Source: Lepisosteus oculatus (lineage: Eukaryota > Chordata > Actinopteri > Semionotiformes > Lepisosteidae). From it: DNA of 64,000 bases. The notes below the pieces were generated by a model, which was given only the letters and a program-made list of their open reading frames with translations, was not told the origin of the DNA and made no database searches. The stretch is from positions 2,230,501-2,294,500 of the forward strand of contig NC_090698.1 of NCBI RefSeq assembly GCF_040954835.1, read 5' to 3'. Position numbers and translations under genes: made by a program. Shown here in pieces: positions 13,601-59,200 of this stretch (positions within the stretch are counted from its first letter, which is position 1; each line of letters opens with the position of its first letter).

Positions 13601-16600
13601 GTCCAGAACAGTTACTTTCTAGATTCTGGGCACCAGTCAGTCCGGCAGAGGCTGTTTTCTGGCTACACTCCCTCTCAGCTCCCGGGGAGAGTCCTTTTTC
13701 CAGGTCACAGTGCAGGTGGAAGAACCTGTCATCTGCATTTCTTTAGCAAGCTGCTGCTCAGAGGACAAACCCTGACCCTGGCCTCTGGTGTCAACTGGCA
13801 TCTTTAAGCAACTGTAGTGGGATACATAAGAATGTTTGCAAGCAAGAGGAGAACGTGACCCAACCAGCCTGTTTGGTAGTGAAATAATCCAAGAATCCCG
13901 CCCAGATTTTCTTGAGAGAATCCCTGGTAGTGGCTTCAACCACATGGCTGGGCAGCTTGTTCCACACTCCCGCAACTCTCTGGGTAAAGAAGTGCCTGCT
14001 GTTCTCGGTTTTAAATGCACTTCTGTCTAGTTTCCACTTGTACCCTTTGGGGTGTGTTTCACTGCTCGCTAGGAAGAGCACTGCTGGTTTGGCTATGTCC
14101 GCGTCTTTGAGGAGTTTAAAACTTGTATGAGTTTCCCTTGTACTCTGGGGACAAGGAGTATCGAGGAAACCACTGGTGCCTCTCTTAATAATTACTGTAC
14201 GTAATCTGGCCCCGCTCATGGGGATGTGTATATTGGGGCTTTTCTTGGAGCCTTGACGCCTGCTGTCGTGCCCAGGCTGTCCCAGATGCGGGAGGAGAAG
14301 GAGGTCCTGGCCCGGGCCCTGGAGTGCCTGCAGGCTGGGGGGCCGGCCCCGCGCGACGAGCCGAGGGGGGCGCAGGCGCTGAAGGAGGTGGTCCGCAGCC
14401 TGGAGGAGGAGCTGCTGCGCGAGAGAGCCAGGAACCAGCGCTCCGCCAGCAAGAAGAGCCAGGAGCAGCGCCTCCTGCTGGAGAAAGTGAGTAACCCCAG
14501 GGAAGGCGCTGGAGGAGGAGAAGGGTAAGATCGCTGGCACAGAAGATGTCACGTGCTATAGCGCCAGAGAGCGAGGGGTTATGATGCTGTAGAGCACTTT
14601 AATAAAGTGTTGCCAAAGCTTTTGTGGGGTGTTTTTTTTAAAACGCCACAGGTCTAGTGCTGTGCTGTGCTGCACTGCTGTGGTTATATCAATCGGGGAG
14701 TTATCTGTTCAGTACTGTAGACGTTCTTCACATCAAATATTAACTTACGTTTTACAGTACAGAATTCTTGCAAAATATTTTTTTTCCCTAAGCGCACACT
14801 CGCCTTACGCCCCCCTGGTTTTCAGCAATAATGCTTTGGTCAGGTGTCCACTGCTGAGTGAGAAACGGATGAGTGACGGACTTGTTTTGACCTTTACCAC
14901 CCCAAAACCCATGTACGAGAACGACTACTTCCCCGAGCAGTCTCGCTCCTCTACATCCCTCTTCCTTTTCCTCTTTTTTTCCATGGCTTCACTCCGTCCT
15001 TCCCCTCTCAGCTGGAGGAGCTTAAGGCGTCGGAGAGGAACCTGCGCGTGCGAGTTAAGAGCTTGACCAGTGAGCTGGCGATCGTGAGAAAGGGGTGAGT
15101 CTGCGCGTATCACTGGGTGTATCTACAGTCTTCGATCAGATGTACTGAGCAGTGGAGCCGTGGGGAGCTCATCTCCACTCCTGGCTCTTCACTGGACAGG
15201 AGGTGTAACTGAAGGCTCTTCTGCAGGAGGGTGACTCCCGTCGGGCCCCGGCGGTCAGGTTCAGAGCTGGGCTCCGGACCGCCCAGGAGAGAGGCGGAGG
15301 GGCGGCGCTCGGTGTCCCGGGACAGGAGCCTGGGGAGCTACTCGGGGTCCCGGGAGCGCAGCGTGGGTGTTGGGGAGCGCTCGGGCTCCCGGGACAGAGG
15401 GCGGAGGTCAGGCTCAGCTGGTACGCGCCCCTTCGTCCCCAGGCAGTCCCCATCACCAGCAGGTAAGCACAGGTGTGCACAGACCTTCAGAGAAACACAG
15501 TAGCTGCCGATGGCTGCAGTAAGTGCCCACTTGAAGACCGTGCAAATTTCTCCCAGGACTCGGAGGCTGGAAGGGGAGAGGTCTGTCAGTGCCCTGCAGA
15601 TAGTGAAGAAGAGTCCTCAGTTCTTCATTCTTACATCCCTAATTTAGCTTTGTGCAGCAAATACTCGTCCATCCTGTATTAGTTGGCCACTTTGCCAGGT
15701 GAGGGGTACAGCTAGAGTCCATAGCTGCAGCAAAGAGTGCGAGACTAGCAGCACATAAGACAGGTGACGATCTAGAGATGACTGTTCTGGTCCTGGGGGG
15801 GGTGAATACTCAGCTGACCCTTATTTTTGTTCTCCTCCGACACCATGATGGGTCATACGTGAGCAGTGTCTGGAAATTGTGGTTTTCAGTAGAGCTCTCC
15901 GCACACAAGACCGTGAAATCAAGAGGCGTTTCTGCTCTGTTTGACAGGGACCAGAGCCCCCCGCTTCGACCCCACGGCCTACATCAAAGGCAAGGAGCGC
16001 AGGCAGAGGGAGGCCCAGCTGAAGACGTAAGGCTTACTGGCGCATGAAGTCGTTTGCTCCTTTCAGTAATCGCATAAGTGTGCGCGCTGCTGATGTGAAG
16101 CCCAGTGCTGTATGTTTTACTGTATTTCTGAGGGACGGGCAGAGCGTACCCATTCATGCCCTGAGTGGTGCTGGCCTCTCCTGCTTGTCCTCTCCGAGCC
16201 CCATCAGGCCCGCCGCCAGCCCTCGGCCTCGGAACGCACCAGCGTCTGAACCTGCTGGAGTCACAGGCCGCTCCGCTCCTCCCGGAAACCCTGTGCTTCC
16301 GTGCTGCTGTGCAGTGGGAGGGTTGGGAATTTAGCAGCCGGTTTTGTGTTCATTTGAAGCCCGTTTCTTGGCGGTAGCAGAGTTGAGCAGGGCTGATAAC
16401 TGAAAGGCTGTGGGCTCGAATCCCAGGTGAAACACTGCTGTTGTACACTTGAGCAAGATATTGTTCCCTTGAAATATCCAGCTGTTTAAATGAATGCAAA
16501 AGTATCTTGCTTTAGATAAAAGCGTTGGACAAATAAATTCGTTTCCATGAGACACAAAGATAGCAGCTTGCTGCAGTGGTATTTTATTGCAATGGGCAGG

Positions 16601-18903
16601 ATTTACTTATTATTCAGTAATACAGCCTCAGTGCCAGCAGTGTTCATTGTTTGGAATCTTTAATGCGTGCTTGTTTAATGAGGAGTGTATATGTACATAT
16701 AACTCTTTAAGTCTGACATGAGATTTAATTTACAAAAGAGTGAATAACTGTCTTGCCATTTCATAAAATTGACAGTTCAGGTTATTTGTTTTTGCCCACA
16801 GTGTGCAGCTCATGGTATTTTAAGGTTTGATAGCAAAAACATTACAGGCTGAAGATGTCTAAGGTCCTGTGGAAGATGACGCAATCTGCTTTTCATTATT
16901 CCGTTGACTTATAAAACATCAGTACTATAAGAAGCTGTTGTAACGGATTGTCCCGTCTCAAAACAAACTTGTGTTAAATGAAAAAAACATTATTGTTTTG
17001 CTTTCGAGTTTGCTCATGATTGTCAGGGTCAAAGAGCATCTTCTTTATAGGATGAATGGCTGACAAGCCCACAGTCATCTCTCTCCTTGTGTTTTGTTGT
17101 TAATGGACTTTGACTCCTCTCTTCTGTCTTTGCAGTCAGAGGAAGGTGCAGCGAGACATGCTGACCACGCCCACTAGCTCCGAGAGAGGGCGGGCCCGCT
17201 CCCGGGAGACTCGCCATGGCAGTGCCCGATTGGGTCTGGCTGCCAGGGGGCGGGGCTCCTCTGTGGAGAGCCAGAGGAGCAGGCAGTCTTCAGCCAGCTC
17301 ATTGGCTGATCTGGAGGACCTGGCTAAGCCCCTCCCTTCCAGGTGAGCTCAGACGAAGTGACGACAAAGCCAGACCTCCATCTAGGAGCTCACCATCTTG
17401 ATAGATGCAGTAGTATCTGTAAAAAAAACAACAAATAGTTTTTTCTTTTAGTTATGGCCAACAGCTAAAGAGCTTCAATAAAATAAACACCGGGTCACCC
17501 AGAAGTGTCCATTGGACAGTGCGAGAAGGGGAGGGACAGGGATTCCCTGCAGTTCAGGTGGATTGTGGGTACAGGAAGGCAAGATCCATGTGTCTGATCC
17601 CAGTGTGTCCCCTGTGTTCCAGTGCTGGGATCCGGAGCAGAAAGAAAACGCAGCCTCCCCTGTGCTCCGTGCCCTGGAACAGCCCCGGCATGGTCAGTAC
17701 CCCTGGGGTTCAGCCGCTGTGCCCCTTGTCCTCCGGTCTGAAGAGCGTTTGTGTAGCTTTGTGTCCAAGATCCTTATCCAGCTGCCTCTTGATAGACCAG
17801 TAAGATCAGCATTGAATTAATTCAAAGCCATTGATATTCAGTTAGTTCAAACAATTGATAAATCTTTCAGCTTTCAGCTAAATAATTTTTACTTGCTTTC
17901 AAATCTCAAATACATTTATAATTTAATGTTTATTTAATATAAACTTTAATGTTTATGTATATAACAGTTGTTAGGTTTGTTAAAGCTGTGTAGTTTATGA
18001 AATGCTTTTGGGTATTTAAAAAATAAAAGGCACTGCTTACCATTACTGCTGTTATTGGTCTAAGTTTAACAACCAGAGAAGTTCCAGCTATTGAAGGCTT
18101 AGCGTACAAAAGTTAAAGAATTTGTGAATGGTTACAAATAAGAGGAAATTGTGTGGCCCAGTTGGGTTCGCTGTTTCGTAAGGGAAGCCAGGGTATCACC
18201 TGGATCAGCATGACAAAAAAGTGTCTGTAAAGCTCCTTAACGCAGAGTTGTGGGAGTCTGGGACAAGGTACCCAGACAAGCTGTTGAAGCTGATCATTTC
18301 AGAAAACGACTGGATGAGGTCTTTGGGTCCACCGCCTACTAGCAGTTAAACAAGTGATGTGCGCTGAAAGGCATCCCTGTTTGTAGGCTTTACGTTGATT
18401 TGATTCATTGATTTAAATGTTAAACAAAATTCAAGTTCTTCAGGGAGAGAAATCCCTGACGTGGAACCGTCCTGTTCCTGTCTCTGCAGCCCCCCAGAGG
18501 AGCCAAGCCAAAGAGGCAGATGTCCAGCACCCCAACCAGGAGGAGCCGGGTTGCTGACAAAGGTCAGTCTTTATTAAACAATCATTTCTTCAGGATTTAA
18601 ATGGCTTGTAGACCAGCTTCCAGGACGGCCACTGAGGCCCTGTCTGAGCCCGCTGTTCGTTGTTGTAATGCTGTTGAATGGGACAGAGTCTGTAGATGAC
18701 TACTCATGGGCCCACCCAAAGCTCTTCTTGCTCCAGTGGTCTTCCCGAGTGTGTTGCAGTATTCTGTGAGACATGGGCATGACAGCAGCGCCTTTGTCGG
18801 TCTTGCAGAGAACTCCTTCGACCCTGGTGCCGATCTCTCGGAGATTGACGCCCGACTGCAGGCGCTTCAGGACTACATGAGGAATCTGGAAACTGGACAC
18901 TAG
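10683..18903 (+). CDS. ccdc61: CCDC61 (VFL3 homologue), complete, 12 coding exons
   Basis: CCDC61 is a centrosome, basal-body and ciliary protein of the SAS6/XRCC4 superfamily that dimerises and binds microtubules. Coding exons are 10683-10830, 11193-11275, 11673-11833, 12732-12884, 14276-14486, 15012-15094, 15227-15462, 15948-16026, 17136-17342, 17623-17692, 18490-18562 and 18809-18903. They sum to 1599 nt, giving 532 residues, with all phases compatible. The N-terminal head (about 1-145) contains TADQWRGEF, IEDLTRKTGNFKQF, LLTYGDLELLRNRK and KRYLILIYSVEFDRIHYPLP, all diagnostic. A coiled coil follows (about 145-275, LSQMREEKE...LEELKASE), then an Arg/Ser-rich basic region, the conserved RFDPTAYIKGKERRQRE block (about 362-380) and a divergent tail. 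The start has a gccATGG context. Length is close to the human protein. The intron between exons 4 and 5 holds LINE debris. Confidence 0.95.
13130..13560 (-). repeat. Degenerate non-LTR retrotransposon fragment
   Basis: The minus strand around 13208-13400 translates to pieces such as RFLAITEDSHHPGHELL and GKRYKSIQT. These resemble the HP...L..SG+RY+SI+T segment near the end of fish LINE polyproteins. Stops and frame breaks are present. It lies in CCDC61 intron 4. Confidence 0.4.
13820..14215 (-). repeat. LINE-end repeat family B, longest copy (copy 4)
   Basis: This is the best-preserved copy. On the minus strand it reads YKWKLDRSAFKTENSRHFFT, then QRVAGVWNKLPSHVVEATT and SLKKIWAGF. The WNKLP...FK pattern is typical of LINE reverse-transcriptase C-termini. 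It lies in CCDC61 intron 4, directly before exon 5. Confidence 0.75.
16370..16545 (+). mobile_element. tRNA-derived SINE
   Basis: A B-box-like GGGCTCGAATCCCAG (16410-16424) lies about 35 bp after an A-box-like block. It is followed by CACTGCTGTTGTACACTTGA and a terminal GATAAAAGCGTTGGACAAAT. This order (tRNA-like head, 'CACTGCTGCTGTACCCTTGAGC', then 'GGATAAGAGCGTCTGCTAAAT') is a common fish SINE layout. It lies in CCDC61 intron 8. Confidence 0.65.
18190..18355 (+). repeat. LINE-end repeat family B, copy 5
   Basis: A diverged + strand copy: 'AACGCAGAGTTGTGGGAGTC', 'GACAAGCTGTTGAAGCTGAT' and 'CGACTGGATGAGGTCTTTGG' align with copies at 20695 and 30920. It lies in CCDC61 intron 10. Confidence 0.55.
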
Positions 18904-28461: not shown

Positions 28462-31400
28462 ATGGGGTGCGCGCTGTCCGGAAGCGGAGTGAGTTCGGGA
28501 GCGTCGGCTCCCGACTCGGCCGGGTCCAAAAGAGATCGCGCGGCGGAGTCCACTTTTGCGTCCGCTGGAGGTTCCGAAATCGGAGGCGCCAGGGGTCCCG
28601 GATTCCGCCTGAAGTCGGAGCCAGTTCCCTTGACAGAGTCCCAGAAGGACCTGATCCGGGAGTCCTGGAAGGTCGTGCATCAGGACATCGCCCGGTTAGG
28701 GATCATCATGTTCATCAGGTAGGAGAGAAAGAACCGGGCTCGTAACTGTCGCTCCCGTACTCCCTCACAGTGACACTCATGCCCACTTTGCTGAGGACAT
28801 CGCAGCTGTAGATGTGTGTGTGTTCACATTAGTACTGTGCTAGTGAATTCAGCCAGGGAATGACGGGCGTGCTTGGTAAAGAGATTATAGCACCGATTTT
28901 ACACGCAAGATCGATCTTGACCACACTGGGAAACAGTGTAGCACATAATGCTCTATCATCATGTTTCTTGTTTTTGTCCCAAGAAACATAACCTGTGGCA
29001 TATCCTGACCTTTTAAATCAATCACTCACTCAATCAATCAAACCAGTTTTATTAATCCTTGGTATTTTTGTGTCGTACGATGTGGTTAAAGCACCAAGCC
29101 TTTTATTCAAGGGATGCTACTGTATATACAGTATGAATGAATTTGGCTGCCTGTGCTGAAGTTGGTAATCAGCAGCACAGAAAAACAACATTTGAGGAGA
29201 CCTGTTGGAGTTCACATCCCACTGCACAGTCTAGGACAGACCTGGGCTGTGTAGCCATGTGTTAAATAACAAGTAAAGGTTTATTCCCTGCAGAAAAGAG
29301 AAGTAAAGAAACACAACGTTTCGGCTGTGGAGCCTTCTTCAGGTGTGTCGGGTGTGTTAAATATTTTTAATAGTGAAATAGTGGAAGATAACAGAAAGGG
29401 AGAAGTGGTGGTTAACAGTGAGGTCCCACAGCTCTGGGGTGCTGGGTTTGTCTGCAGGTGCAGGTGCCTGTCTGTGTGGAGTCTGCATGGTCTCCCCGAG
29501 TCTGCATGGGATTTCTCCAAGCACCCCAGTTTCCCCCTCCTCTGACAGGGTGACAGGCCTGTCTGGAGGGGCTCAGCTATGAAACTGACCCCACTGTAGT
29601 CGGGACAAGGCTCAGGCGAAGCAGTGAGCTCCTCCTGTGCCCGTGTCCCTCCCAGGCTGTTCGAGACCCATCCGGAGTGCAAGGACGTCTTCTTCATCTT
29701 CCGGGAGATCGACGACCTCCAGGAGCTGAAAATGAGCAAGGAGCTGCAGGCGCACGGCCTCAGGTACCCATGTGGGGGTCCCGTGGCTGGGAGTCTCCGG
29801 AGAGGAGGGGGAGGTGAGCTGGAGCTTCACTGCGTCTCCTCTCTCGGCAGGGTGATGTCGTTCATCGAGAAGAGTGTCGCGCGACTGGCTCAGGAAGACA
29901 AGCTGGAGCAGATTGCCTTGGAACTGGGGAAGTGCCACTGCCGCTATAATGCACCCCCAAAATACTATGAGGTACCCCTTTTAGAACCACAGACGGGTTT
30001 CGTGTGTGAGGATTTCACTCGAGGTACTCTATGACACTCTATGGAATGGTACTGACACTCCTCGGTCCTGCATTTCAATTGTCCTGTTACCAGTGCGCTG
30101 TGGGATAGAGAGTGTTGGGAGACAGTTCCCTTCCAGGCTATAGATAAGCATCTGTCAGCTCTGTCTCCACCATCCCAGTCTGTGTCCAGTGCTCCCAGTC
30201 CTCCTGCTTTGCGGGGGAGACGTTCCTGAGACTGGGTGGGGGGGGGGGGGTACACTGTATACTGGGAAGGAGATCTCCTGTACTCCCTGACCACCACACG
30301 TTGCAAATAGACAGAATTATGCAAAAGATAAAGAACACGACAGAACTGAAGAGCAGTCCTGCACGGTGTTCTGTTATTAGGAGGGGTATTATTACAATGA
30401 GCATGAAGCAGGTATTTTTCATCTCCTGTGACTAGAACAAGCAGATATCTGTTGTTTAAGATGCTCTAAACAATTCTAACACACTGTTAGTGTTTAACTT
30501 GTGGATCAGCCTGGATTAGTTGTTTTTAATAGAGGTGCAATTAATATAGAGTTCGATTATGATCACATTTATTTCACTCCTAACGTTTTATGAATATGTT
30601 TTTATTAGCATTATATTATAAATTATATTAGCAACCCCTTTTCTAAAGTGCGGCTTTGCCAGCCGGCGCTGTGGCTGAGAGACGGGTTCTCTTGTGTTTG
30701 CCCAGTACGTCGGAGTGCAGTTCATCAGCGCGGTCAAGCCCATCCTGAAGGACAGCTGGAGCCCGCAGGTGGAACAGGCCTGGGAGGTGAATATTCCTGA
30801 GTTTGGGCTTCATTGTGCCCCATTTGAATCAGAGCAAAGTGCCGCAGCTTTCGGTGAGATCATGGTTGTTAATAACCGTTGGGAAACATTTTCTGTATCA
30901 ACAGTAAACCGCAAGCCAGAGGCCACAAGTGGAATCTAGATAGAGGAGCTTCAGAACGTGCACAGGATGCACTTCCTTACACAAAGGGTTGTGGGAGCGT
31001 GGAACAGGCTAATCAGCCATGCTGTTGAAGCCGATACACCGGTTTTCTTCCGAGAAAGAGCTGGATGAGATTCTGGGATCAATTAGCTACTAACGACCAA
31101 ACAGTCCAGATGGTCTGAATAGCTCCTCTTGTTTGTCAACACTTTTGACGTTCTCCGGCTACGGAATGTGATGCGGATATTCTAAGATATCCTGTGGTAT
31201 AAATAGTCCTGATGCGAAGGAGGAAACCACGAAGCACATTTCATATGATACAAACATCTATATTGCCCTGCTAATACGAATCGTTCAGTGTTGTTCTACT
31301 GGGCAGGTATATCAGGACATCCGTTACAGGACTAGGTGGTTAACGCTTGAATACCTCTGTAAGGAGTGTATTATCACAGGATAGATGCCTTGCAGGTGTT

Positions 31401-37290: not shown

Positions 37291-38570
37291 ATACTTTATT
37301 GATCCCGTGAGGGAAATTGCAGTGCAACAGCAGCTTAACACACACAACACAGCCACAGTGTAACGAATTATATACTAATAATACAATACATACAATACAA
37401 TACAAGAGTTACTCACAGTCCGGACACACAAGAGGAAATGTGGATGCGTTGTACAGTCTTATGACAGACGGCAAGAATGACCTCCTGTAGCGCTCCCTGT
37501 CGCACCGTGGGTGAATCAGTCTATTGCTGAACGTGCTCTTCATTCCTGCAAGCCTGTCATAGAGGGGATGGGAGAAGTTGTCCATGATGGCCTCCAGTTT
37601 GGACATCATTCTCCTCTCAGCCACTACCTCCAAGGGGTCCAGGTCAGACCCAATGACAGAGCTCGCTCTCCTGATGAGCTTGTTCAGCCTTTTGGAATCT
37701 ACTGCTCTAATCCCAGAGCCCCAGCACACCACTGCGTAGAAAATGGCACTCGCTTCCACCGACTGATAAAACATGTGTAGCATCTTACTACACACATTGA
37801 AGGACCTGAGCCTCCTCAAGAAGTAAAGTCGGCTCTGTCCGTTCTTATAGATGGCCTCGATGTTCTTAGACCATTCCAGTCTATCGTCGATGTGCACTCC
37901 CAGGTACTTGTACGAGTCCACCATCTCCACGCCACTCCCATGGATGTAGACAGGAGTAGGTTTGACCTTTTTCCTCCTGAAATCTACCACCAGTTCCTTT
38001 GTCTTTGTAACATTCAGTTCCAAGTGGTTCACCCCACACCACTCCACAAAGCTGCTGACCAGTCCTCTGTACTCCTCCTCCTGCTCACCCTTGATACATC
38101 CCACAATCGCAGAGTCATCTGAGAACTTTTGCAGGTGGCATGACTTTGAGTTGTACTTAAAGTCCGAAGTATAGAGGGTGAAGAGGAATGGAGAAAGAAC
38201 TGTCCCTTGAGGTGCCCCTGTGTTACTCACTACCAGTTCAGACACGCAGTTCTGAAGTCTCACAGACTGTGGTCTGCCCGTCAGGTAGTCAGTGATCCAC
38301 GAGGTCATGGAGGCATCGACTTGCATCTCCTCCAGCTTCCTCCTTAGAAGTAAGGGCTGGATGGTATTGAAGGCACTGGAGAAGTCGAAAAACATGATCC
38401 TTACAGTGTTGCCAGCCCTGTCCAGGTGTGAGTAGGCCCTTTGCAGCATGTAGATGATCGCATCCTCCACACCAACACTGGGCTGGTAGGCAAACTGTAG
38501 GGTGTCCAGTGATGAGCTGACCATGGGTCTCAGGTGGGATAAGACCAAGCCTTTTTAAAGATATAGCGCC
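37282..38570 (-). mobile_element. 5'-truncated Rex1/L2-like LINE
   Basis: A non-LTR retrotransposon inserted in minus orientation. Its 3' end is the GATAGATAGATACTTTATTG then ATCCC signature common in fish Rex1/L2-like elements. The frame at 38548-37409 is open for 379 codons. The endonuclease and the start of the reverse transcriptase are missing. The right-hand (5') junction has short repeated copies of TTTTTAAAGATATAGCGC, matching the target repeat. Confidence 0.9.
37409..38548 (-). CDS. LINE reverse transcriptase, C-terminal fragment (open)
   Basis: A fragment of 379 residues from the first internal Met, covering the palm and thumb of a LINE reverse transcriptase plus the C-terminal region. 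Visible motifs are FDFSSAFNTI (54-63), GAPQGTVLSPFLF (111-123), and the catalytic box as FSDD (142-145) instead of the usual FADD. Then come LELNVTKTKELVVDFRRK, YKYLGVHIDDRLEW and, near the end, RSFLPSVIRLYN. Lack of stops suggests a fairly recent insertion. The fragment cannot retrotranspose on its own. Confidence 0.9.
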   Translation of the reverse strand: MVLSHLRPMVSSSLDTLQFAYQPSVGVEDAIIYMLQRAYSHLDRAGNTVRIMFFDFSSAFNTIQPLLLRRKLEEMQVDASMTSWITDYLTGRPQSVRLQNCVSELVVSNTGAPQGTVLSPFLFTLYTSDFKYNSKSCHLQKFSDDSAIVGCIKGEQEEEYRGLVSSFVEWCGVNHLELNVTKTKELVVDFRRKKVKPTPVYIHGSGVEMVDSYKYLGVHIDDRLEWSKNIEAIYKNGQSRLYFLRRLRSFNVCSKMLHMFYQSVEASAIFYAVVCWGSGIRAVDSKRLNKLIRRASSVIGSDLDPLEVVAERRMMSKLEAIMDNFSHPLYDRLAGMKSTFSNRLIHPRCDRERYRRSFLPSVIRLYNASTFPLVCPDCE

Positions 38571-38690: not shown

Positions 38691-39289
38691 GCGCTCTGTT
38701 ACCGGTGCGAGAGTAACAACTCTGCAGTTGTGTTTCTCTGTTTGCCCGGGTCGGGGGGGGCGCTGGATTTTGCATTTAATATCGGTATCTTCTGTGCGTT
38801 TGTGTGAACAGGAAAATTAAATTTGTCCCCAATATCGTACCCTAAGCAGAAGAGTTGCGGGTTTAGCCTTAAAAAGCGAACTTTAGGAAACAACATTATG
38901 TTCTTACAAAGAGGCTTTAACTTGCACGTCTTAATACTTCGTAGCGCTGTCCTTCAAAATAATCTGAAGAAGTAATCAGTTTCTCATTGTCTCCTTCTTA
39001 AATAGACATGCGCACCGAGGGACTGGTGAAGATTCGACCCGCCGGTCGAGTCAGTCTTTAAAAAGGCTTGGATTTGCAACTTCAACTCTTGTCGCGCAAA
39101 GCACATTCGTCATCGTGAAAAAGAACCAGGATGTTTTTATCAGGGGCCCTGTGTACAAAGCCGACACGGGTCGTTCATAATACATCCGCAAAACAACATT
39201 GGTAATTCTACCGTCTCACACTTGCGGACCGCGGCAATCTTGGAAAAATACTTTTATTTTCACAAAAATAAAAATTGTTGTAGGGGGGG

Positions 39290-39425
39290 GGGGGCTGAGT
39301 GGCGGTCACAGTCCCCCCAAAAGAAGGCGCTATATCTCGGGAAAGAAAGCAGCTGGGAAGGTACTTTCAATGGCACAAAACGGCACAAGCAAGGCACTAA
39401 CGAATGAGCGCGGGGGGTAATCGTT
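39290..39425 (-). repeat. Inverted third copy of repeat family E
   Basis: The minus strand reads TTGTGCCGTTTTGTGCC, CTTCCCAGCTGCTTTC and TTTCCCGAGATATAGCGCC, followed by a C-rich run. It matches E2 (37200-37290) in inverse orientation. Confidence 0.65.
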
Positions 39426-39785
39426 TGTGCTGTGTGTAGGGGGGTGGGGGGGGCAACTTCACTGGCGCGCGTGTGCCTGTGCGCGAGGCAGTGGGCGTGT
39501 GTCCGGGGTGACTCCTGCCTCAGCAGCCCGGCTGGTGACCATGGGTGTGTGGACTTGTTGTAGTCATGCCCTTGATTTAGGCCTTCCTCAATGCGATGCT
39601 TCCAGCACTCCTGTCTCAGGGCTGGAGCTGATGTTTCATGTAGGACTGCTGATTGGATTTCAGTGCTTTGTGACGCTGAGGACTGGTCCCTCAGGAGGCA
39701 CACCTTGCCCTGCGGCCCACAGCCCAAAGATCCGGCTCCTCTGGGGGGGGGGCTGTGGATGTAGGGCCCACTCTGGTCCGGTGCC

Positions 39786-40140
39786 CATGCGTTAGCGGGA
39801 TTGGGCCTGGTCCTGGGTGGTCCTGGGTGGTCTGGTGCTGACGAGCCCATGCGTTCTTCGGAGTGAGCCTGGTTCTGGGTGGTCCAATGGTGATGAGCCC
39901 ATGCGTTCCCGGGAGTGGACCTGGTCCTGGGTGGTCCGCTGCTGACCAGCCCATATGTTCCCGGGAGTGGACCTGGTCCTGGGTGGTTCTGGGTGGTCCG
40001 GTGCTGACCAGCCCATGCGTTCCCAGGAGTGGACCTGGTCCTGGGTGGTCCGGCGCTGACCAGCCCATGCGTTCCCGGGAGTGGACCTGGTCCTGGGTGG
40101 TCCGGCGCTGACCAGCCCATGCGTTCCCGGGTGCAGCGGG
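39786..40140 (+). repeat. 52-bp minisatellite (six units plus a partial)
   Basis: Units begin CATGCGTTCCCGGGAGTGGA and end GCTGACCAGCC. Six units are recognisable from 39787, and two carry an extra TCTGGGTGGT-type 10-bp insert (62 bp). The array is open in several frames and so generates long false minus-strand frames. It ends about 60 bp before the acceptor of the IL15L first coding exon. Confidence 0.92.
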
Positions 40141-40201
40141 CTTGTCCAGCGTTGTTCCGGCCCGGCAGGAGGGCGCTGATCCGTGTCCTCTCTCTGTGCA
40201 G

Positions 40202-40393
40202 AGGGGGAGCCGGCGAGAGCAGATGTCCGGGTTGGTGCCAGCTGGAACAGATGGAGTGGCAGCTGGCATGAGCCCGCGGCCCGGTTTCCCCCACCCTGCT
40301 GGCACGCCGACGAGCCCCACAGAGGTCCTGGCCCTTTCCTGCTGACCCCCCCAGCTGTCCCGGGACTGGCCCTGGGGGACTGATGGTCCTGCC
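40202..40393 (+). promoter_or_regulatory. IL15L leader with upstream start codons
   Basis: Between the acceptor at 40201 and the cytokine start lie four upstream ATGs: 40223, 40251, 40268 and 40383. They define an upstream frame of 40 codons (40223-40345, with 40268 in frame), one of 6 codons (40251-40271), and one starting at 40383 in good context (G at +4) that overlaps the main start and ends at 40460. Upstream AUGs are a known brake on IL-15 translation in mammals. Confidence 0.6.
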
Positions 40394-43300
40394 ATGCGGT
40401 GGAGGATGGCCACCCCTGGCAGCACCCTGCTGCGCACCCTGTGTTGCCTGGTTGCCATGACGCCGTGGGCAGGAGGGCAGAGGGCCCTGTGCAGCAGGGA
40501 GGCGGTCGCGGACCTGCAGAGCCTCCAGAGCAATATCAGCGGGGTAAGGGGCCGCCACGCGCACACAGCTCCTGAGCCTGCCCTCGCACAGCCCCCCAGC
40601 CCCCCAGACCCCCAGACCCGGGGTCTGATAAAACAGCCCCACCCGCTGCGTCTCAGGACCGCCAGACAACTGTCAGTGGTGAAGGTTGGTCAAAATATAT
40701 TAACCAGCAGCCTGAAGTGGAAGGTACCGCTGAAATAGCAAGCTTGTTTTGCTTTGTTTCAAGCAAGCTCATTGCAATAATAATAATTCCTCACACTTAT
40801 ATAGCATTCTTCTGGACACTCCACTCAAAGAGCTTTACAGGTAATGGGGATCCCCTCCACCCCCACCAGTGTGCAGCCCCACCTGGGTGATGCGCCAGTC
40901 CGCTCCCCACACACCAGCTCTCAGTGGGGAGGAGAGCAGAGTGATGAAGCCAGTTCAGAGAGGGGGGTTATTAGGAGGCCATGACTGGTAAAGGCCAGGG
41001 GGAAATTTGGCCAGAACAGGGGGATAACACCACTTTTCGAGAAACGCCCCGAGATTTTTAATAACCACACAAAGCCAGGACCTCGGTTTTACATCTCATC
41101 CAAAGGACGGCGCCTTTTTACGGTATAGTGTCCCCGCCACTGTACTGGGGTATTAGGACCCACATTAGGACCGCAGGGTGAGCGCCCCCCGCTGGTCCCA
41201 CTAACACCTCTTCCAGCATCAACCTCAGCTTTCCCAGGAGTCTCCCCTCCAGGTACTGGCCAGGCTCACACCTGCTGAGCCCCAGTGGGCTGCCAGCTGG
41301 GAGCTGCAGGGTGATAGGGCTGCTGGCACTGACAACTCTTGCACATCCACACATCACACACCCCTCTTTTGTTAGTGATCTCCTGTCCATCCTGCTACAC
41401 CAGTGAAGCTAAAGGGTGATATTTGAGTGGGCTGGGTAAATATAAGCTTTGATTTACTGAAACAATAGAACTCTGCATTGACTGTTGAGTGTGGAAGCCC
41501 AGTACTGCAATATATTTCTTCAAAATGATTACTTACTTGCCCACTTTACATAAAAATGTATGTAAAGCCACCTTTGCTGTGCTCCTAAGGAAGCAGAGAG
41601 CTGCTCTCCTCCACTTGTGCCCTGTAATGACTTTCCTCTCATTCCTCTGGATCAACAGGGTGCTGAGCTGAGAGAGACATCAGAGTTCAACACTAGTCTA
41701 GTGAAACAGTGAAACAGTGACCACATTTTTTTAGGATATTTTTGTTTCTTACTTCATTTAGAAAAATAAAATAATTCAGATATTAATAATATAATAATAA
41801 TAAACTTTATTTTATATAGCGCCTTTAAAGGTGGCTTCTCAAAGCGCTTTACAGGATGACAATAACAATAAATAAGAAGACTACAACAATAAATAAGAAA
41901 ATTTCACAAGACAGGACACAATAATAATTACAACAATACAACAATAACAATAGAGGAGACTGTGGAAGATGGTATTAAGAAGAGCAGAGGGGTGAAGAAT
42001 GGAACCAGTTAAGTAAAGGCTTTTCTGAAAAGGAGGGTTTTGAGTCTGGATTTGAAGGAGTTTAGAGAAGGTGACTCTCTAATATCCTTGGGCAAGGAGT
42101 TCCAGAGCTTGGGGGCATAGCAGGAGAAGGCCCTGTCGCCCATACAATGTAGACGGGCTTGGGGGACAGTAAGGAGGGCAGAATTTGAAGAGCGGAGGTT
42201 GCGAGGTGGGGAGTAGGGCGATAAAAGTTCAGACAGGTATTGAGGTGCCAAGCCATGTAAAGCCTTGTAGGTGAGCATGAGGATTTTAAAGTCTACGTGG
42301 AATTTGACCGGAAGCCAGTGCAAGGACTCCAGGATAGGAGTAATGTGAACACTTGCACTAGACCTGGTCAGGATTCTGGCTGCTGAATTTTGGACATACT
42401 GCAGCTTGTTCAGAGTAGATTTAGATACCCCAGGGAGCAGAGCATTATATTTAGGTCACATTTTCTACCTGGTTTAAGAGTTTCTGCAATGTGGTAGGGT
42501 GGTGCATCACTTAAACATCTTGATTCACACCCAAAAAATGTTGGGGAAAAAGACAATATCCCTGTAAAGGGATACATTCCTTTGTGTTGATGATGATTCC
42601 TCCTTCTCCAGTCCTAGTCTGCTCATTTGTCTTCTTGTTCCCTAATTTTATCCAACATTTTTATCCAGAGGGTTGCACTGCACTGTACTGTGCAGTACCA
42701 ATGTGGAAGATAATCTTGTATTGACTTACTGATAGGTACCCCCATTGTGCTCCAGCGACTGTAAATGCATAAATTACTGCTGCATAAAAACGATATTGTA
42801 CAGCTACACAATAGCTGAAAGAGGAGCTCCACTTCAGTGCCACAATAATGTAAGTGAAGTAACACCAACGCATGCATACTCACACAATTTTTATAGTTTT
42901 CTTATCTTCAGATATTTCATAATTAACTTCCACATTCAATTTCTCTGTGAATTTTTGCCAGGTTTCTTCTCTGGTTTTTGCAGCTGCTACTGTATAGTTC
43001 CTTGCTATTACAACAGATTTTTATCCCCATAGTTTTCCATAAAGGGCTGTAACTCATAGTCACTGGATGAAGACGTGCATTCTTTCGCTGTGGTTTTGAT
43101 GGCTCAGATGGATTGGATGCTTCACTCTCCTTGCCTACAGAATTGCTGTACTGAATTGCTTTAACCAGATAACTTTAAACCAAAGTGTGCCTTCATGAAA
43201 CCAGAGTAATCATGAAGTCCATAATAGAGGTAATTCAATCTGGCTAATTTGAGAAAATTTGTGAAACAGTAAACTCTGTACTCTGTACACAGTGAGAACC

Positions 43301-46300
43301 TAATGAGTGGGAAACTCCCGCTGTTTAATAACCCATTTATTCATCTCAAAGCAAGATAAAAATTCATAGTTTACATTTTTGTACTGGCACATTACACTTC
43401 TGTGGTAAAGAGTTCTTCACCTTTCCTGTATTCCAAGTTTCAGTCCTATAGCAAAGGAACATAATGATATTTTTACCTTGCCATTAAAAAAACATTCATC
43501 TGTGCTTTGTCATCGGGGTGACTAATCTATAGAGTGTCTCCTGTTTGTTTAGAAAAATGCTGCCTTGCAAAACCAGACTAATTTTCAGATTGTTCTGCAC
43601 TCGTCTTGCCTGTCTTTGATCAGTGCTTTTTTGTTTTCATTCAGAATCGAGACAATTGCACTCTCTACACTGCCAATGTGAGCGATTATAAGGTATGTAC
43701 AGTAGGAAGTGCTGAGCGATTGGTACAGCTGTAATTCGCTGGCAGAGATGTGGTGCTTTTCACCTGCATGTGATTGCACTGCTGCATGGGGCAGGCCCTG
43801 CACAGGAGAGCACAGGGGAGTCTTGACATGGCAGCACCTCTGCAGAGTAATCTGATCACCACGAGAGTTTTGTCCTTCTGGTGAGTTAGTTTCCTTGCAT
43901 CAGTCTCATTGCACCGACGCTGTTTGTGGTGTCTCGACATGTCGCTGGCCTTGCTCTGTTTGTTTTTATAGCGATGCCTCTCCTGGGCTCTTTATCCAGA
44001 ATCTACTGAATACTCTAAGGGATATTGCGTGTTTCCCTGTGAGTGAATGGAAAAGTAACGAGTATCTCAGAGACGTGGCTCTGCAGATGGGGTAGAATGC
44101 TGGACCAGGCTTTGAACTAATTGCCCCTGTCGTGCATCTGGCTGGAGAGCAGTGCTTGAGAGCACAAACACTGAGAGTACCCACCTCATCTCCCTCCCAT
44201 TGATTCTGTAATATTTCTCCCAGTCTGAGAGTCAAAACCCATGTCATTTTTTCTTGTACTGAGCAGCATGACAGATCAGGGTCCATGCATTCATATTGAA
44301 ATGTTATTCCCAAGTTTGGCGTATCTCTTCTGGCACTTTTGAAGGTGCACAGCACTGCATTGATATACAAGCCCGAATCCAACGTGGTGTACAGGAGCAG
44401 ATACTTGATCTTGTGCATTCCAGAAAAAGGTCTTGGCATCCTCACTGCATAGTAAACACTGTTTCCCTCCTGCATTCTGAACAGATTAACCTCTCCAGGA
44501 GTATTAACCCTTTACAAGGCAGGACCACGTGAGCACTGGGTGTGTGTTGAGTGTACCTGGCTGTGGATGGAGAGCTGTTTGGAGGTTAATGACCACACTG
44601 TTCTGAAGCTGCTTCTGAAGCTATTGTCTGCATCTCCAGACAATAGGAGATGCCTCGCGTTGTACATGGAAGAAGGCTGACAGAGTGACCAAGAAAGATG
44701 TGGCTAACGTGGGTGTTGTACAGTTCCCTGAATCAAACAGATCATGGAAGTCTGACTTGGAATGAAGCATCATGGAGCAGCTTGACATAATGATCACAGT
44801 GCTGGAGTTCTGCTAAAAGTCTGACAAAGTGCTCTTTCCTCCTAACCTGCACACACGTACTGCTGCTCTATGCATCCTGCCTGTTATTCCTCAAAGACTC
44901 TAGCAGAAATGCCACACCACAGCGGGGATTTAAAACTGGACTCTTATTATTATTGGTAGTAGAATTATTATACTGGATTATTATTGTTAGCTGCACTTGG
45001 CACTGATGTGTTGAGTGTCAAAAAGGCCTCAATTTAATGTGCTTTGAACCGGAGCTCAAGCAGGGGATGTGTATTATTGGACTCCAGTTTGCACAATCTG
45101 AACTGTGTTCCTCAAAATCAAGAAACAATGAAAAGCCGCTTCATAATTCCTTGCTTTTCCAATTTCTGAATAAATGGTTATTCATTTCCTCAGTGCAATA
45201 CTCTTAAACCCACTTGAACATGTTTACCAGACAATAAAGGAATTCAGTGCAAGAGTTCAGGACGCTCTGTTCATCTAAATCAAATTAATTCTCTTGTTGG
45301 CTCGGATGGATTTATGTTTTTTTTGAGAAGCAGGATTAAATTCTCAAACTTTGGTTTTTTTGAAGCTGCCCTTATCTGACTCCTCTGGTCGGACTGGGAC
45401 TCCATTCCCCGACAAATTATTGTCCTCCTGGAAACCACTATTTGATTCAATGGGACTTCTTTTCACTTAAATCCGTGGTCTTATTTGTCACTGTTTAAGC
45501 CTGAGCCTGCTCCAGCTACCTCACCCTTTCTCCTGCCAGTGCTAACACGGCAATGTGTCTTGTTTCCTGGGAGCCGACAATGAGCCGGCTCAGCTTTGGG
45601 AGATTGAAGCCCGGAAGCCTGCCTACCAGCGGGTCCAGGAGAGACCCAACGGCACAGGCTTCATCACGGCATCCTGACCGTCTGAGTCCGGGGCTCGGAG
45701 CGCCTGGCCTCGTCATCCTGTTTTTATTCCCTGTCCGTGTTCTGGATCCTGTTCCGGATTTTAACCATGTTTTGTCTCTTCTCGGATGGATCACCTGGTT
45801 TTGGACTTTGGACTGCGCCCCAGATTTCCCCTCTGGGCTCTTTGGACTTGTCTGCCTTGGCCACGCCCCCCCGTCTGTCAACCCCTTCTGATCCTCGTCG
45901 CCTCCTCCCTGTTGTCCTTCTCCACTTACTTCCGGATGATACCGTCTGCATAGGGTCCAGAACTACGCTTGACGGGAGCCTGGACCGCCTCCTGTTACAA
46001 AACCCTTCCAACAGCCACAAGACCAATGACACATATGGAGTAGAGCGTTGGTCGTCTCCAGCGTTGGTGTTGACTAAAACCGGTACTCTGTTACGCTGTA
46101 CTTATTTGATATTGTTCGCAGTTTGATGGTGATGTCTAAGGGAAGGTGCAGAGTTGTGAATATTTCTGCTACTCTGCTGACATCTTGGTGTGTTTTATCC
46201 AGCAGGAATGTCCCAACTCCACACTATCTTGCTTTATTGAGGAGCTCGGGGTCCTGATTCTCGAGTTTGGACACACGAGAACGAACGTCTCTTCGAAGCT

Positions 46301-48906
46301 CCTGAGGCGGTTGCATCGGCTGAATACGAAGGTGTGTGTTTTCCCTCCTCCTCTCCGTCTTCCGGTTCGTCCCCCTCGCCGTGGTTCCGTGGGCAGGCGT
46401 TGGGCCGTTTTCACTTCGCGGCGATTTGTTTTTCGGTGAGAATTTGCAGTTCGCCATCGGTTCCTGCACCTGGATGCATCTCTTCAGCCTGTCCCCAGGA
46501 AGAGGCGGACCTGGCGTTTTGAAGTTCCCGTGAAGCAAGACTGCTATTGGGCCGGTACCCCTCATTAACTGGCTTGTTTTAGAGAGCGGGTCCAATTCTC
46601 GCCGTCGCTTTAAAGCCATTCCCTTTCAACACAGAAGCGCAGCGGGGTCTGTCAGCTATGCTGGTTTGTTCTATATAGTCGACTGGCACAGTAGCCACAG
46701 GCTGACTAAAGAGTGCGCGTTTTCAAGGACATCTTGTCCTTGATGCACTGGCGTTCTGTCACAGTCTGTGTCCATTAAGGAACGAAAGTGTTCGGTATTA
46801 CCTTCAATAAATTTTTTCAAACGTCAGGGCTGGATCTGGACGGAAGCCAGCACTCTGAACTCCGGCAGAAGTTGTGCTTGAGTGTGAGAGAGCGAGATGG
46901 TGTCTAAACTTTTTTTTTGAAATCACTAAAGGTTAGGGATTAGAAGCCGAGTATACCCGAGATGAACTTATAGCATTGACTGTCCTTTCTCTTCTGTTTT
47001 TGTATGTGCGTGCATTGCAGCTTCTCCACACGACCTCGCAAGTTAAAGTAAAAACGATCTAATCCGCATTCCTCATCAGTTCGCACTTATCGCCGGCACA
47101 TTCCCAGCATAATCAGGTTTCTGATATTTACTGAGCATTTCAATGTCCAAGAAAAACATGCCATAAAGTCTGACATTTAGATTTAAAAAAAGAATTCAAA
47201 GTAATCCTAAAATTCCCTGTACACCAATTAGCACAGAACTGGATTTCTGGGATGAAAAGGCTTGAATCTGGGAGGATTTCTGCTTTCCTGCGGTGGGACT
47301 TTTTCTCATCTCTTGCCAGTGAATGTTATCAGCCGCCCACTTTGTAGACCCGTTGCGGTTATATTAACATGACTGCGTTGAGTCAAACAGTTTATAAAAA
47401 CCTGTAAAAGTATACAGTACCTGCTCATTCACACCAGCTTGTAATTCTAGCTGGTATTCACTCCAGTTGTTCTGTTTCTCAACATTTTTATACATTTGTG
47501 GTTGAGTAGAATTCCAGTGATGTTTTGAGCATTTTAGTTCTCATGCTAGAACAATAGACGATCCCTACTATTAATAGAATTGAAAATAGAAATGAAAGGT
47601 GAGTTTCTGGAGTTGCAGGAGACCTACAGTACAGTACCTGGAGAATGGCCAGACTCATTCAGAGCTGTAGTTCCCTTCAAGGGAACAAGTAACAGGTTTA
47701 TTCCATGCTGAAAAGAGAAGAGAGAAAACACAGCGTTCTTCAGGTGTGGGGCTCACTCACTGAACCAGCGTTCCCTTCAAGTACCTTTGAGACCCCAACT
47801 CACAAGGCCCAGAATCACCTGAGTACCTAACAGCAGTGAGCTCTTACCTGCATGTTGTCATTTTAAGATCAAATTAAGACTTCAGATTTAAAACCAATTT
47901 TTATACATGCAGGAATAGAGTTGTTTTTTTTTTTGCGTCACCTCAATGGGAGGAGACATTCTTGGACAGATTTCTGCTGCATGAGTCAAACAATGCCATT
48001 GAGTGTTCAGCTCTTATCTTCTTGTGTAACTTTTTATTCCCATCACTGGTTGTGGCCCCGAGGGGAGAGTTTAAGGTATAGTGTTGCCACAGAAGTCAGG
48101 CCCACAAACTCCAAAGGAAGCAAAGGGAGATCTGCAAGCACCGACAAGCAGCAGATTGTATTCCTTTCCCCTTGACAGAAGATCTCAACTTTTGCCCTGC
48201 TGTTAGTTTTGAAATCTGATTGCTTCTGCACTCCTCTGTAGCTGAGTCACAGGAGAAGCACGCAGCGTCTTTCCTCAGGATTCATGCTAATTATGAGGGA
48301 TCGGGAGGGTTTTTCCCCTCACCGCGGAAGATGAGACTGGTGGGCCCTCGCTAGCGGAGAGCGTGCAGGCAGCAGCGTGATCCCAGTGTCCTGCCCCAGG
48401 AGCTCCGGCTGGGCTCCCTGTGGGAACTTCCCCACTGCTGCCCAGTTCCCGTGTTCAGCCCGTTTCCCTCCCGGGTTCTTGCTGGAGCCAGGCCCACATT
48501 TGAAGCCCCGGGAAGCAGCAGCCATGCCCTTGTAGCTCTCCAGATGTTCCCTCCTCCCTCGAACTGCACTGAGGCATTCTAGATCCCATTAGAAGAGAAA
48601 AGCTCTCTCATCCCTGGGTGCGCAGAGACGCCGCAGCTGCAGCGCAGGGGGCCTGAAATGGGAAAGAAGTGAAAGCTGATGCAGACTTTCCACAGGTGTG
48701 CGGCCGCGAGATGGGAGTCGTGCTTCCAGTTTTGATTTTGTGCCCTTTGGGGGCGGGGGGGTTCTCTTGTCTCTGCTGTGCTCTTTTTTCGCCAGAAGGA
48801 CCAAAAAGCGGACTGCCCACAGTGCGAGGCCCATGAGGAGCAGCCACCCTGGGAGTTCCTCACCGCCCTGCTGTCAGTCCTGCAGTCCATTAACGACAGC
48901 TGTTAG
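40394..48906 (+). CDS. il15l: Interleukin-15-like cytokine (IL-2/IL-15 family), four exons
   Basis: A short-chain four-helix cytokine, expected to be secreted and to act through IL-15R-alpha and the shared beta/gamma-c receptor. Exons are 40394-40543, 43645-43692, 46206-46331 and 48796-48906, all phase 0, giving 144 residues. Exon 1 has a signal peptide (LLRTLCCLVAMTPWAGG) and start of helix A (CSREAVADLQSLQSN). Exon 2 has NCTLYTANVSDY, like IL-15 TLYTESDV. Exon 3 has ECPNSTLSCFIEELGVLILE, like IL-15 SCKVTAMKCFLLELQVISLE, with identical C-x6-C spacing. Exon 4 has DCPQCE and FLTALLSVLQ, like IL-15 GCKECE and FLQSFVHIVQ. Cys33 and Cys55 could add a third disulfide as in fish family members. The receptor-contact Tyr and Glu positions are kept. 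A start at 40406 (Met5) has the stronger context. IL15L is preferred over IL15 because of the neighbours; the split is inference. Confidence 0.85.
40785..41330 (-). mobile_element. 5S rRNA-derived SINE, copy 4 (minus)
   Basis: The tail 'GGACACTCCACTCAAAGAGC' comes first. Body and 5S-like head then run to TGCCAGCTGGGAGCTGCAGG near 41310. It lies in the intron after IL15L coding exon 1. Confidence 0.85.
41795..42470 (-). mobile_element. L2-clade LINE 3' fragment
   Basis: The minus strand is open over the reverse-transcriptase C-terminus: LNKLQYVQNSAARILTRSS, HITPILESLHWLPVKFHVDF, KILMLTYKALHGLAPQYLSE, then LWNSLPKDIRESPSLNSFKS and RLKTLLFRKAF. The 3' tail has AAAGCGCTTTGAGAAGCCAC and TATATAAAATAAAG. 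It is 5'-truncated and moderately young. It lies in the intron after IL15L coding exon 1. Confidence 0.85.
42480..43640. other. Intron sequence of IL15L
   Basis: AT-rich, with no repeat or exon recognised. The candidate frames on either strand lack splice partners. Confidence 0.4.
44621..44646. repeat. 10-bp perfect inverted repeat
   Basis: CTATTGTCTG and CAGACAATAG flank a 6-nt loop. It is intronic, and a function is not evident. Confidence 0.8.
45480..45970 (+). repeat. LTR-like or unclassified fragment
   Basis: The stretch has the 'GTTTTGGACTTTGGACTG', 'GACTTGTCTGCC' and 'CCGTCTGCATAGGGTCC' style seen in fish Gypsy-type LTRs. No partner LTR, primer-binding site or gag/pol sequence is found, so this is at most a solo fragment. 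It lies in the IL15L intron before exon 3. Confidence 0.3.
46332..48795. other. Last intron of IL15L
   Basis: Mostly unique sequence with one copy of repeat C (47692-47745). The right end (from about 48690) is CpG-rich and runs into the last exon. Confidence 0.45.
47692..47745 (+). repeat. Unclassified repeat family C, copy 3 (short)
   Basis: Has AGGTTTATTCCATGCTGAAA and then GCGTTCTTCAGGTGTG. The central GTTTCGGC part is deleted relative to the other copies. Confidence 0.55.
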
Positions 48907-56279: not shown

Positions 56280-59200
56280 ATGTCGGACAGCGAGGACAGC
56301 GACTTCTCGGACAACCAGAGCGAGCGCAGCAGCGAGGCGGAGGAGCTGGAGGAGAATGAGGTAACGGTGGGCGCCCTCCCCTGAACCCCTGATCGATGCA
56401 CAGTCTCCGTTTAGGCCCGGTGTTCTTTTACCCTGCGCTCACTGGACAGCGAGACTGGACAGGGCGGTCAGAAGAAGCTGCTCTGTCCGGAGAGCTGTGC
56501 CACTGCAGGGGTCACTGAACTGAGGTCTTTTTCGCGGTCAAAGAAGACGGGGAGTCGTGTGTTCGACGATGTGTGGCGGTTGTGTCCTTTTCTTCCCTAC
56601 CTGTGCCAAGTTTCTTTGGAGTGTGCGGATATTATTTTTTGAAGTTTAGCGATCACCCCAGTTGTCCCATTAAGTGGTGGTGAAGGGGCTGCAGAAGATT
56701 GGCTTCTAGCTGGAATCTGCACGGCCTGTCCCATGTCCTGCCTCTGCTCACAGATTGTTCTGCTGCCACTAAGACAGCTACCTGACCACCATTTCTTTCC
56801 CTTCATCCTCAGTATGTGGTCTGTGACACTAACTCCTGCCGTTTAATACTTTTCAAAAGTTCATCCATTTCAGTGCAAAAACAGCCAAGTGTGATTTATT
56901 ATTGATAAAGAAACACTTTATATTATATAGCGCCTTGAACGGTGGCCTATCAAAACACTTAGTGACACTTAGCGCCTCGTGCACTGGGATTCCTATGCAT
57001 ACTGATGGCTTTAAAAGAAAAAGAGCTGTCTGTTTTTAAGCACAGTGTGTTATAACTGCTTAACACAGTGTTGTACCCTGAAAGTTTTCAGATTTCCCTG
57101 CTATCAACGACTGTGCTCTCTGACTAGCTTTTCCTTCCTGCTTCTCTGCTCTGTGCTTGGGCGCAGCTGGGGTACAGGGATGTCGGTTTGCTGGGAGGCC
57201 CCGTCTTGGCTGGCAATTAAACGTTAGCAGTTGGCTCAGACCTGCAGTTATCCTGGGTCCTTCAGCTCCAAACTTGTTTTCGTCTTGGCAACAAGAGCGC
57301 AGAGGTTAAATCAGGTTGTTAATTCAAGTTAGGGCATAACCTGGCGCTTCACTGTTAATACACCCAGAAAGGAAAGGTGTTTGTGTAGGTCTTGGGGAGG
57401 GAACAGTGACTCTGGTGCAGCTCGTCCTGCCGGGGTTTGAATCCTGTGCTGGTGGCAGGCCCAGTACAAGGTGCCGATCGCCCCGCCTTCGGGCCTCCAA
57501 GCACAGAGCAGAGTGGGGATTGTGCCCGCAGCTCCGAATCAAAGCGCAATTCCAGTCTTGGAAGCTGTCGAAAGGCAAGACGGAGGGTTTATTTGTGTGC
57601 TCTGGACCGCTGTGCCGGAAGGCAGGGGTTTGGGTCGGGCCCTCCCTGGAGAGCGGTTCTGGTCCGGTTCTGCAAAGCGGGAGGGGTGACTTGTTTGTTG
57701 CTGGGTGTGTGACGGCCCGCTATCGTCCTGCAATGGCAGGAGGAAGAGGCCCAGGCCAGCGACAAGGGAGAGGAGGAGATAGAGGAGGATGAGGAAGAGT
57801 ACGATGAGGAGGAAGAGGAGGATGATGACGACCGGCCCAGGAAGAAGCCACGTCACGGGGGCTTCATCTTGGACGAGGCCGGTAAGATACCTGTGTTCCT
57901 CTCTCTCCCTCGGCACTGGGGGTGTCTCTGTGCCACTGGTTCATTGAGAAAACCATTTGAAAATATTTTTTTATGGTAATTCTGGAGCAGATAAAAGAAG
58001 GGATTCAATCCTCTGCCCAAATTCAATGTAATCACCTTCTTTTCTGTCTTGTTACCTTCTGCTCACCTGTGAAATTGTGTGGTGCCCCCCTCATTCTGGG
58101 GTACAGGACAGTGAGGTGTGCTAGTCCTGTAAGTGTCAATTCTGCTTCTGAACCAGCATTCAGTTGTTGGTTCTGCATAGCTGAATTCAGAGGGAGGTCA
58201 TATCCAGGCTTGCTGTCCACTGTCCGATGTCTTAAACATAAAAGTGTTGAGGTCTGTTGCCTTTTAAAATGCATGATAAGGTGGACAAAGAGCAGGCCAC
58301 AGGTGTGGCGGCTCTGACACTTAACAGGAGAGGCTCTCTGACACCATCTTTCCTGTTCTAGATGTGGACGATGAGTATGAAGATGAGGACCAGTGGGAGG
58401 ATGGAGCTGAAGACATCCTAGAGAAAGGTCAGTGCGTCCTCGCGAGGAGGTGGGATGGAGAGAGTGGCTCGCATGAGAAGCTCTCCTTCGAGAGCTGGCG
58501 TGCTGTATAGGTCTCCTGTGACTGGGTTTGGAAAACAAAACAAATTGCATTTAAAAAAGCCAAAACAAACCTTCATAGTGGCTTTATAGATCAGATCCTT
58601 TCAGCACCTAATATTCTGAAATGGTGTGAAGCTGCCATCTGTGGGTTTATGACTGAATGCCTCTAACACCTAAAAAAAGTGGGGGGATTCTTTTTGTTGT
58701 ATATACATTTTCTTATCGTTCTCTTCTGATGCCCCCCTTTTTTAACTTCTGAATCTGAAAGTTGGCCTTTGGTCTGTCTGCTAAACCTGTAGGGACTAAT
58801 AGGAATTACAATGTTTCAAGACTCGTTTTGAAGCATCATAGGGAAAATGATGCTTCAACATGCGACTATATATCATAATGTTGGTATGTTATTGATAGCA
58901 TATTAATTAGGCTGTTCCTGTAATGTCCTGATCTTAAGATTTACAGAAAACAATCTTGAGCCAGTTAATTGCTCTGAAGCTGCTTTGTTTAGGGCTGACT
59001 AGGCCAGTGCATCATGGTCTGATTTTAACCTCTAGCTGGTGGAAGGAAAGATAGCTGTTCAATGCTTCCCATATCTTAAATTAGTCATGTTTTGTCATAC
59101 ATTCTAAATGTTTAAAAATTGTGCTTAAGCCCGTGATTACCTGTAGGGTATAATTCCTTGTAATGCAAAACCTTCAGAAACATATTTGGAAGTTACATCA

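Follow-up and report, generated by a model that had tools for sequence, protein, structure and literature searches.

The window, the whole stretch of 64,000 nucleotides that we analyzed (C3:2230501-2294500 in a genome of 1.2 Gb), holds a four-exon cytokine gene between a globin gene and the first coding exons of SUPT5H (Table 1). The first of these SUPT5H exons starts 7.4 kb downstream of the cytokine gene. The joined SUPT5H pieces score 19.2 bits with Pfam Spt5_N, below the cut-off of 24.2, and SPT5 motif patterns gave no match downstream of 48000 in the window; further SPT5-like exons lie downstream of the window. The upstream globin is presumably globin X, a name that we take from its place near SUPT5H. 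A published study gives the order SUPT5H-GbX-PLEKHG for turtle, coelacanth and Anolis. PLEKHG stands beside GbX in that order, and here CCDC61 lies beyond the globin gene as seen from the cytokine gene.

Table 1. Features of the window, with the cytokine gene entered under its highly probable name, IL-15L
Feature	Position in window	Strand	Remarks
CCDC61, several exons	10719-17331 (ends approximate; right of 12885 named by eye)	+	10719-12885 joined matches the CCDC61 structure 6hxy at 8.4e-75
Globin X-type gene, core pieces	28462-30786 (ends approximate)	+	joined pieces match Pfam Globin at 3.8e-16
IL-15L coding exon 1	40394-40543	+	open, phase 0, donor GGG/gtaagg; putative signal peptide, N-terminal Cys33, start of helix A
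IL-15L coding exon 2	43645-43692	+	NRDNCTLYTANVSDYK; LYT, a predicted contact for IL-15R alpha; picked by the splice-aware search
IL-15L coding exon 3	46206-46331	+	C-x6-CF, IEELGVLILE, helix C; alternative start 46203; second-best segment of the HMM
IL-15L coding exon 4	48796-48906	+	CPQCE, helix D with Gln138, terminal Cys144, stop; alternative start 48799; top segment of the HMM
SUPT5H, first coding exons	56280-56360, 57740-57880, 58361-58429 (ends approximate)	+	when joined, match human SPT5 at 2.1e-26; continues past the window

In the flanks, scanned with few motifs over 80 kb on either side of the window, RhoGEF (2.9e-16) and PH-type exons lie at about C3:2.162-2.165 Mb, on the same strand as the cytokine gene and some 106-109 kb upstream of it. 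RhoGEF motif patterns had no match within the window itself. The nearest solved structures to these exons are other RhoGEFs, P-Rex1 first, and we infer from the domains and the locus that the gene is PLEKHG2. With PLEKHG2 named in this way, the gene order is PLEKHG2, CCDC61, globin X, IL15L and SUPT5H. According to PMC3894449, the position of IL-15L in fish, reptiles and mammals is between PLEKHG2 and SUPT5H, and the same locus is given in PMC7658486 and, for carp, in PMC11611867. The window gene stands in this published place, subject to the naming of PLEKHG2.

Between the globin gene and the cytokine gene, an open reverse transcriptase segment runs on the minus strand (37412-38554; Pfam RVT_1, 8.9e-19) and is probably part of a LINE-type transposon.

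Gene model and joined protein

The original prediction had proposed four exons, and a check of the sequence bore this out: they lie on the plus strand, their borders are GT/AG, all four are phase 0, and together they encode 144 amino acids followed by a stop codon. It had also held that the gene is invisible in ORF lists, a statement that needs correcting, as exon 1 falls inside a listed 114-aa ORF. Of the family layout that it described, C-x6-CF, IEELGVLILE and CPQCE are present in the protein; the signal peptide stays putative, and corresponds to a hydrophobic stretch at about residues 11-21 in a Kyte-Doolittle plot.

The donors of exons 1-3 (GGGGTAAGG, AAGGTATGT and AAGGTGTGT) rank within the top 1.2%, 0.4% and 0.5%, respectively, among the 4039 GTs on the plus strand of the window. 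In the bases that precede the acceptor, the share of pyrimidines is 82% for exons 2 and 4 and 59% for exon 3. This poor tract counts against reading the exons as an IL-15L gene, as does the slight similarity of exon 1 beyond helix A. Two of the acceptors are tandem (NAG NAG), CAGCAG at 46200-46206 for exon 3 and CAGAAG at 48793-48799 for exon 4, and a one-residue difference in the protein is possible at either junction.

Just 5' of the start codon lies a minisatellite (39783-40131), made up of roughly six copies of a unit some 52 bases long. It is crossed by a 469-aa ORF on the minus strand (39260-40669) that looks spurious. The 900 bases upstream of the start contain 20 ATGs, part of them inside the minisatellite. 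AUG-rich 5' UTRs have been reported for IL-15L (PMC7658486), and the upstream ATGs would fit this description, given a presumed transcript start. A scan of the sequence for bacterial-type promoters found no match, a result that is uninformative for a fish gene.

Family match and chance controls

An HMM search of the joined protein, which the original prediction had put forward as a check, returned a single Pfam family, IL15 (PF02372), at 5e-10 and 40 bits, above the cut-off of 28.5, over residues 35-138. Searched singly against Pfam with E values up to 1 allowed, exons 3 and 4 gave no match, and exon 2 is too short for a separate Pfam search. Among solved structures, at E up to 10, the joined protein matched eight distinct sequences. 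Four are IL-15 (mouse at 5.5e-7, the others at 3e-6 to 3.2e-6) and two are IL-21 (8.6e-5 and 4.6e-4); the remaining two are another interleukin (0.2) and a photosystem protein that is unrelated (0.42).

As the exons had been chosen by eye, the Pfam value makes the evidence look stronger than it is, and we therefore ran chance controls, all with the human and mouse IL-15 letters from the structure matches as the query. These controls bear on the possibility that unrelated open stretches were stitched together by chance, or that the gene is a decayed pseudogene, to which the free choice of exons and the lack of significance of exons 3 and 4 taken singly lend some weight. A two-sequence IL-15 HMM was applied to both strands, on open segments of 12 aa or more; exon 4 scored highest (8.5 bits), followed by exon 3 (7.7). 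In 60 randomized windows searched with the same HMM, the best segment exceeded 8.5 in four, and the second-best exceeded 7.6 in none. A chain search that took no account of splice sites scored 120, compared to a maximum of 117 in 100 randomized windows, and used a wrong exon 2; this marginal result is too weak to decide alone and is compatible with chance. When an acceptor, a donor and phase 0 were required, the search of the whole window scored 119 and returned exons 2-4, with the alternative starts for exons 3 and 4, whereas the highest score among 200 randomized windows was 86, with a median of 73, and reversed pieces of IL-15 scored 77. The margin over the randomized windows is large, in a search that left exon 1 out and whose length and splice limits were set with the gene known. 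Set against this margin, against the strong donors and against the correct locus, which was found independently, the probability that the gene is a chance assembly or a decayed copy is close to negligible.

Searched against the genome at E up to 10, the joined protein gave five matches, four of which are its own exons. The fifth, at C3:859116 (E 2.07), contains three stops and was treated as chance. The Pfam IL15 model had no match in the genome at E up to 0.001. Allowing E up to 10 gave two matches, which fall short of the cut-off and do not correspond to the exons in the window. Since the model missed even these exons, the genome search cannot show that IL-15 is absent. The weaker of its two matches, at 64.3 Mb on C3 (E 3.76, one stop), was set aside: inspection by eye of plus-strand segments of at least 25 aa found no family hallmarks.

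IL-15L and the other members of the family

The other weak Pfam match, at C1:10491043 (E 0.175), reads as a second four-exon, phase 0 cytokine gene, located at C1:10489543-10492650. Once joined, its protein matches Pfam IL15 at 5e-12. Among solved structures its best match is IL-15 (8.3e-8), with a weaker one to a chain labeled just Interleukin (2.8e-4). Its signal peptide is followed by APTQST, and we take APT to be an IL-2-like mature start. An FGF gene lies 155-165 kb away, and because this fits the IL2/FGF2 neighborhood, the C1 gene is probably IL-2, a name that is not certain. Its exon 2 (GNKDGLYYTPADYK) resembles exon 2 of the window gene, which gives independent support for so short an exon.

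Given that the two genes have the same layout of four phase 0 exons, could the window gene itself be IL-2, or an IL-2-like copy? We regard this as very unlikely. It is the C1 gene, at 10.49 Mb, that has both the IL-2-like start noted above and the FGF gene nearby, and its protein is 24% identical to the window protein and is without the extra cysteine pair described below.

When the window protein is aligned with IL-15 of human and mouse and with the protein of the C1 gene, all four sequences share Y58, C68, C75, F76, E79, E86, C115, C118 and E119, and three of the four share Q138. C68, C75, C115 and C118 align with the four cysteines of IL-15, and both family cysteine pairs are thus present. 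The key residues for IL-15R alpha, Y28, E47 and D/E54 in the published numbering (PMC3894449), are Y58, E79 and E86 in the joined protein. An LXTP motif, F44, D/E89 and Q108 are described for many IL-2/15/15L members (PMC3894449). The window protein has F76, E119 and Q138, but its LXTP motif reads LYTA, and the missing proline counts against the assignment. IL-15L is described with an acidic residue in helix A, an arginine in helix C and E/Q in helix D; the window protein contains D40, R100/R101 and Q138, which may correspond to these, with the caveat that the helix A and C alignments of these cytokines are uncertain, as also stated in PMC3894449 and PMC7658486. Both papers call trees of these cytokines inconclusive.

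C33 and C144 of the joined protein make up an additional N-/C-terminal cysteine pair, which is described as typical of IL-15L (PMC3894449). The pair is not strictly diagnostic, because a similar extra bridge may also occur in avian IL-15 (PMC3894449) and because trout IL-15Lb has lost it. A seventh mature cysteine, C55, stands immediately before LYT; an obvious partner for it is absent, and this too was counted against the assignment. It is possible, though we consider it unlikely, that C55 makes this IL-15L act in another way than that of trout, whether as a disulfide-linked dimer, through a covalent bond to the presenting receptor chain, or otherwise.

The nearest solved relatives of the protein are mammalian IL-15, and the Pfam model carries the same name, as would be expected if the gene were IL-15 itself. 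These matches do not separate the members of the family, however, because the C1 gene shows both of them too. The neighbors of the window gene on C3 are SUPT5H and the globin X-type gene, whereas NOA36/ZNF330, given in the original prediction as a neighbor of IL-15, lies at 28.12-28.13 Mb on C1. The extra cysteine pair also speaks against IL-15, as does the placement of the putative signal peptide inside exon 1; in IL-15, according to a published figure legend, exons that code for the leader precede consensus exon 1. An identity as IL-15 is therefore distinctly unlikely.

Taken together, the SUPT5H and globin X-type neighbors, the published locus and the extra cysteine pair uphold the preference for IL15L over IL15 in the original prediction, and we conclude with high confidence that the window gene is IL-15L, apparently intact and at its usual chromosomal place. 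IL-15L is known in other fish and in some mammals, and the gene in the window is an expected member at the expected place.

Proposed mechanism and comparison with known systems

Gene structure, family match, locus and cysteine pattern are observed directly; the steps of the proposed mechanism are drawn from work on trout and cattle, and expression and receptor use of the window IL-15L are inferred by analogy. Trout and cattle IL-15L are reported to bind IL-15R alpha and to depend on this receptor for stable secretion (PMC3894449), and trans-presentation, induction of type 2 markers and STAT5 signaling are reported for IL-15L in PMC7658486. By this model, the window gene would encode a secreted four-helix cytokine with three predicted disulfide bonds, C68-C115, C75-C118 and the IL-15L-type C33-C144. 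Tyr58, Glu79 and Glu86 would mediate its binding to the IL-15R alpha sushi domain, and this receptor chain would stabilize the protein and present it to neighboring lymphocytes. A type I receptor that includes the common gamma chain (Gln138) may then pass the signal on to STAT5, and the outcome would be a push toward type 2 immune responses.

A Hox13 homeodomain searched against the genome at E up to 1e-12 gave at least 17 matches, with 150 of 169 candidates scored. Four of them are close (84-97%, the next being 60%); they lie on C1, C10, C12 and C31, and each has additional matches next to it. Four copies point to a ray-finned fish whose genome lacks the teleost duplication. In PMC7658486 (2020), spotted gar IL-15L is published as a cDNA only, and the value of the window lies in its complete genomic coding gene. 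The gene agrees with IL-15L having been separate before the origin of teleosts, and type 2 immunity could be studied in this fish.

Among the systems compared, the C1 gene, probably IL-2, resembles the window gene in its four phase 0 exons, the DYK at the end of exon 2, CF-x2-EL and CxxCE, but differs in sequence (24% identity), in contig and in the absence of the extra cysteine pair. IL-15 (Pfam PF02372; PDB 2psm, 2z3q) has in common with the window protein the two cysteine pairs, LYT, CF-x2-EL, CxxCE and the helix D Gln, at an identity to the human and mouse pieces of about 26-31%, depending on the alignment. It differs in its published locus and in its leader exons.

Compared to published IL-15L, the window protein reads LYTA where LxTP is described, and has one more cysteine next to this motif. 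Common carp IL-15L is described in PMC11611867 as being without a signal peptide, whereas the window gene seems to have one. An intron parts exons 3 and 4, as it does in fish IL-15L, whereas tetrapod IL-15L has lost this intron (PMC3894449). The window gene is like IL-15L of trout, zebrafish, spotted gar and cattle in its locus by SUPT5H and a PLEKHG-type gene (PMC3894449, PMC7658486), and its protein has the extra cysteine pair and the IL-15R alpha contact residues in common with published IL-15L.
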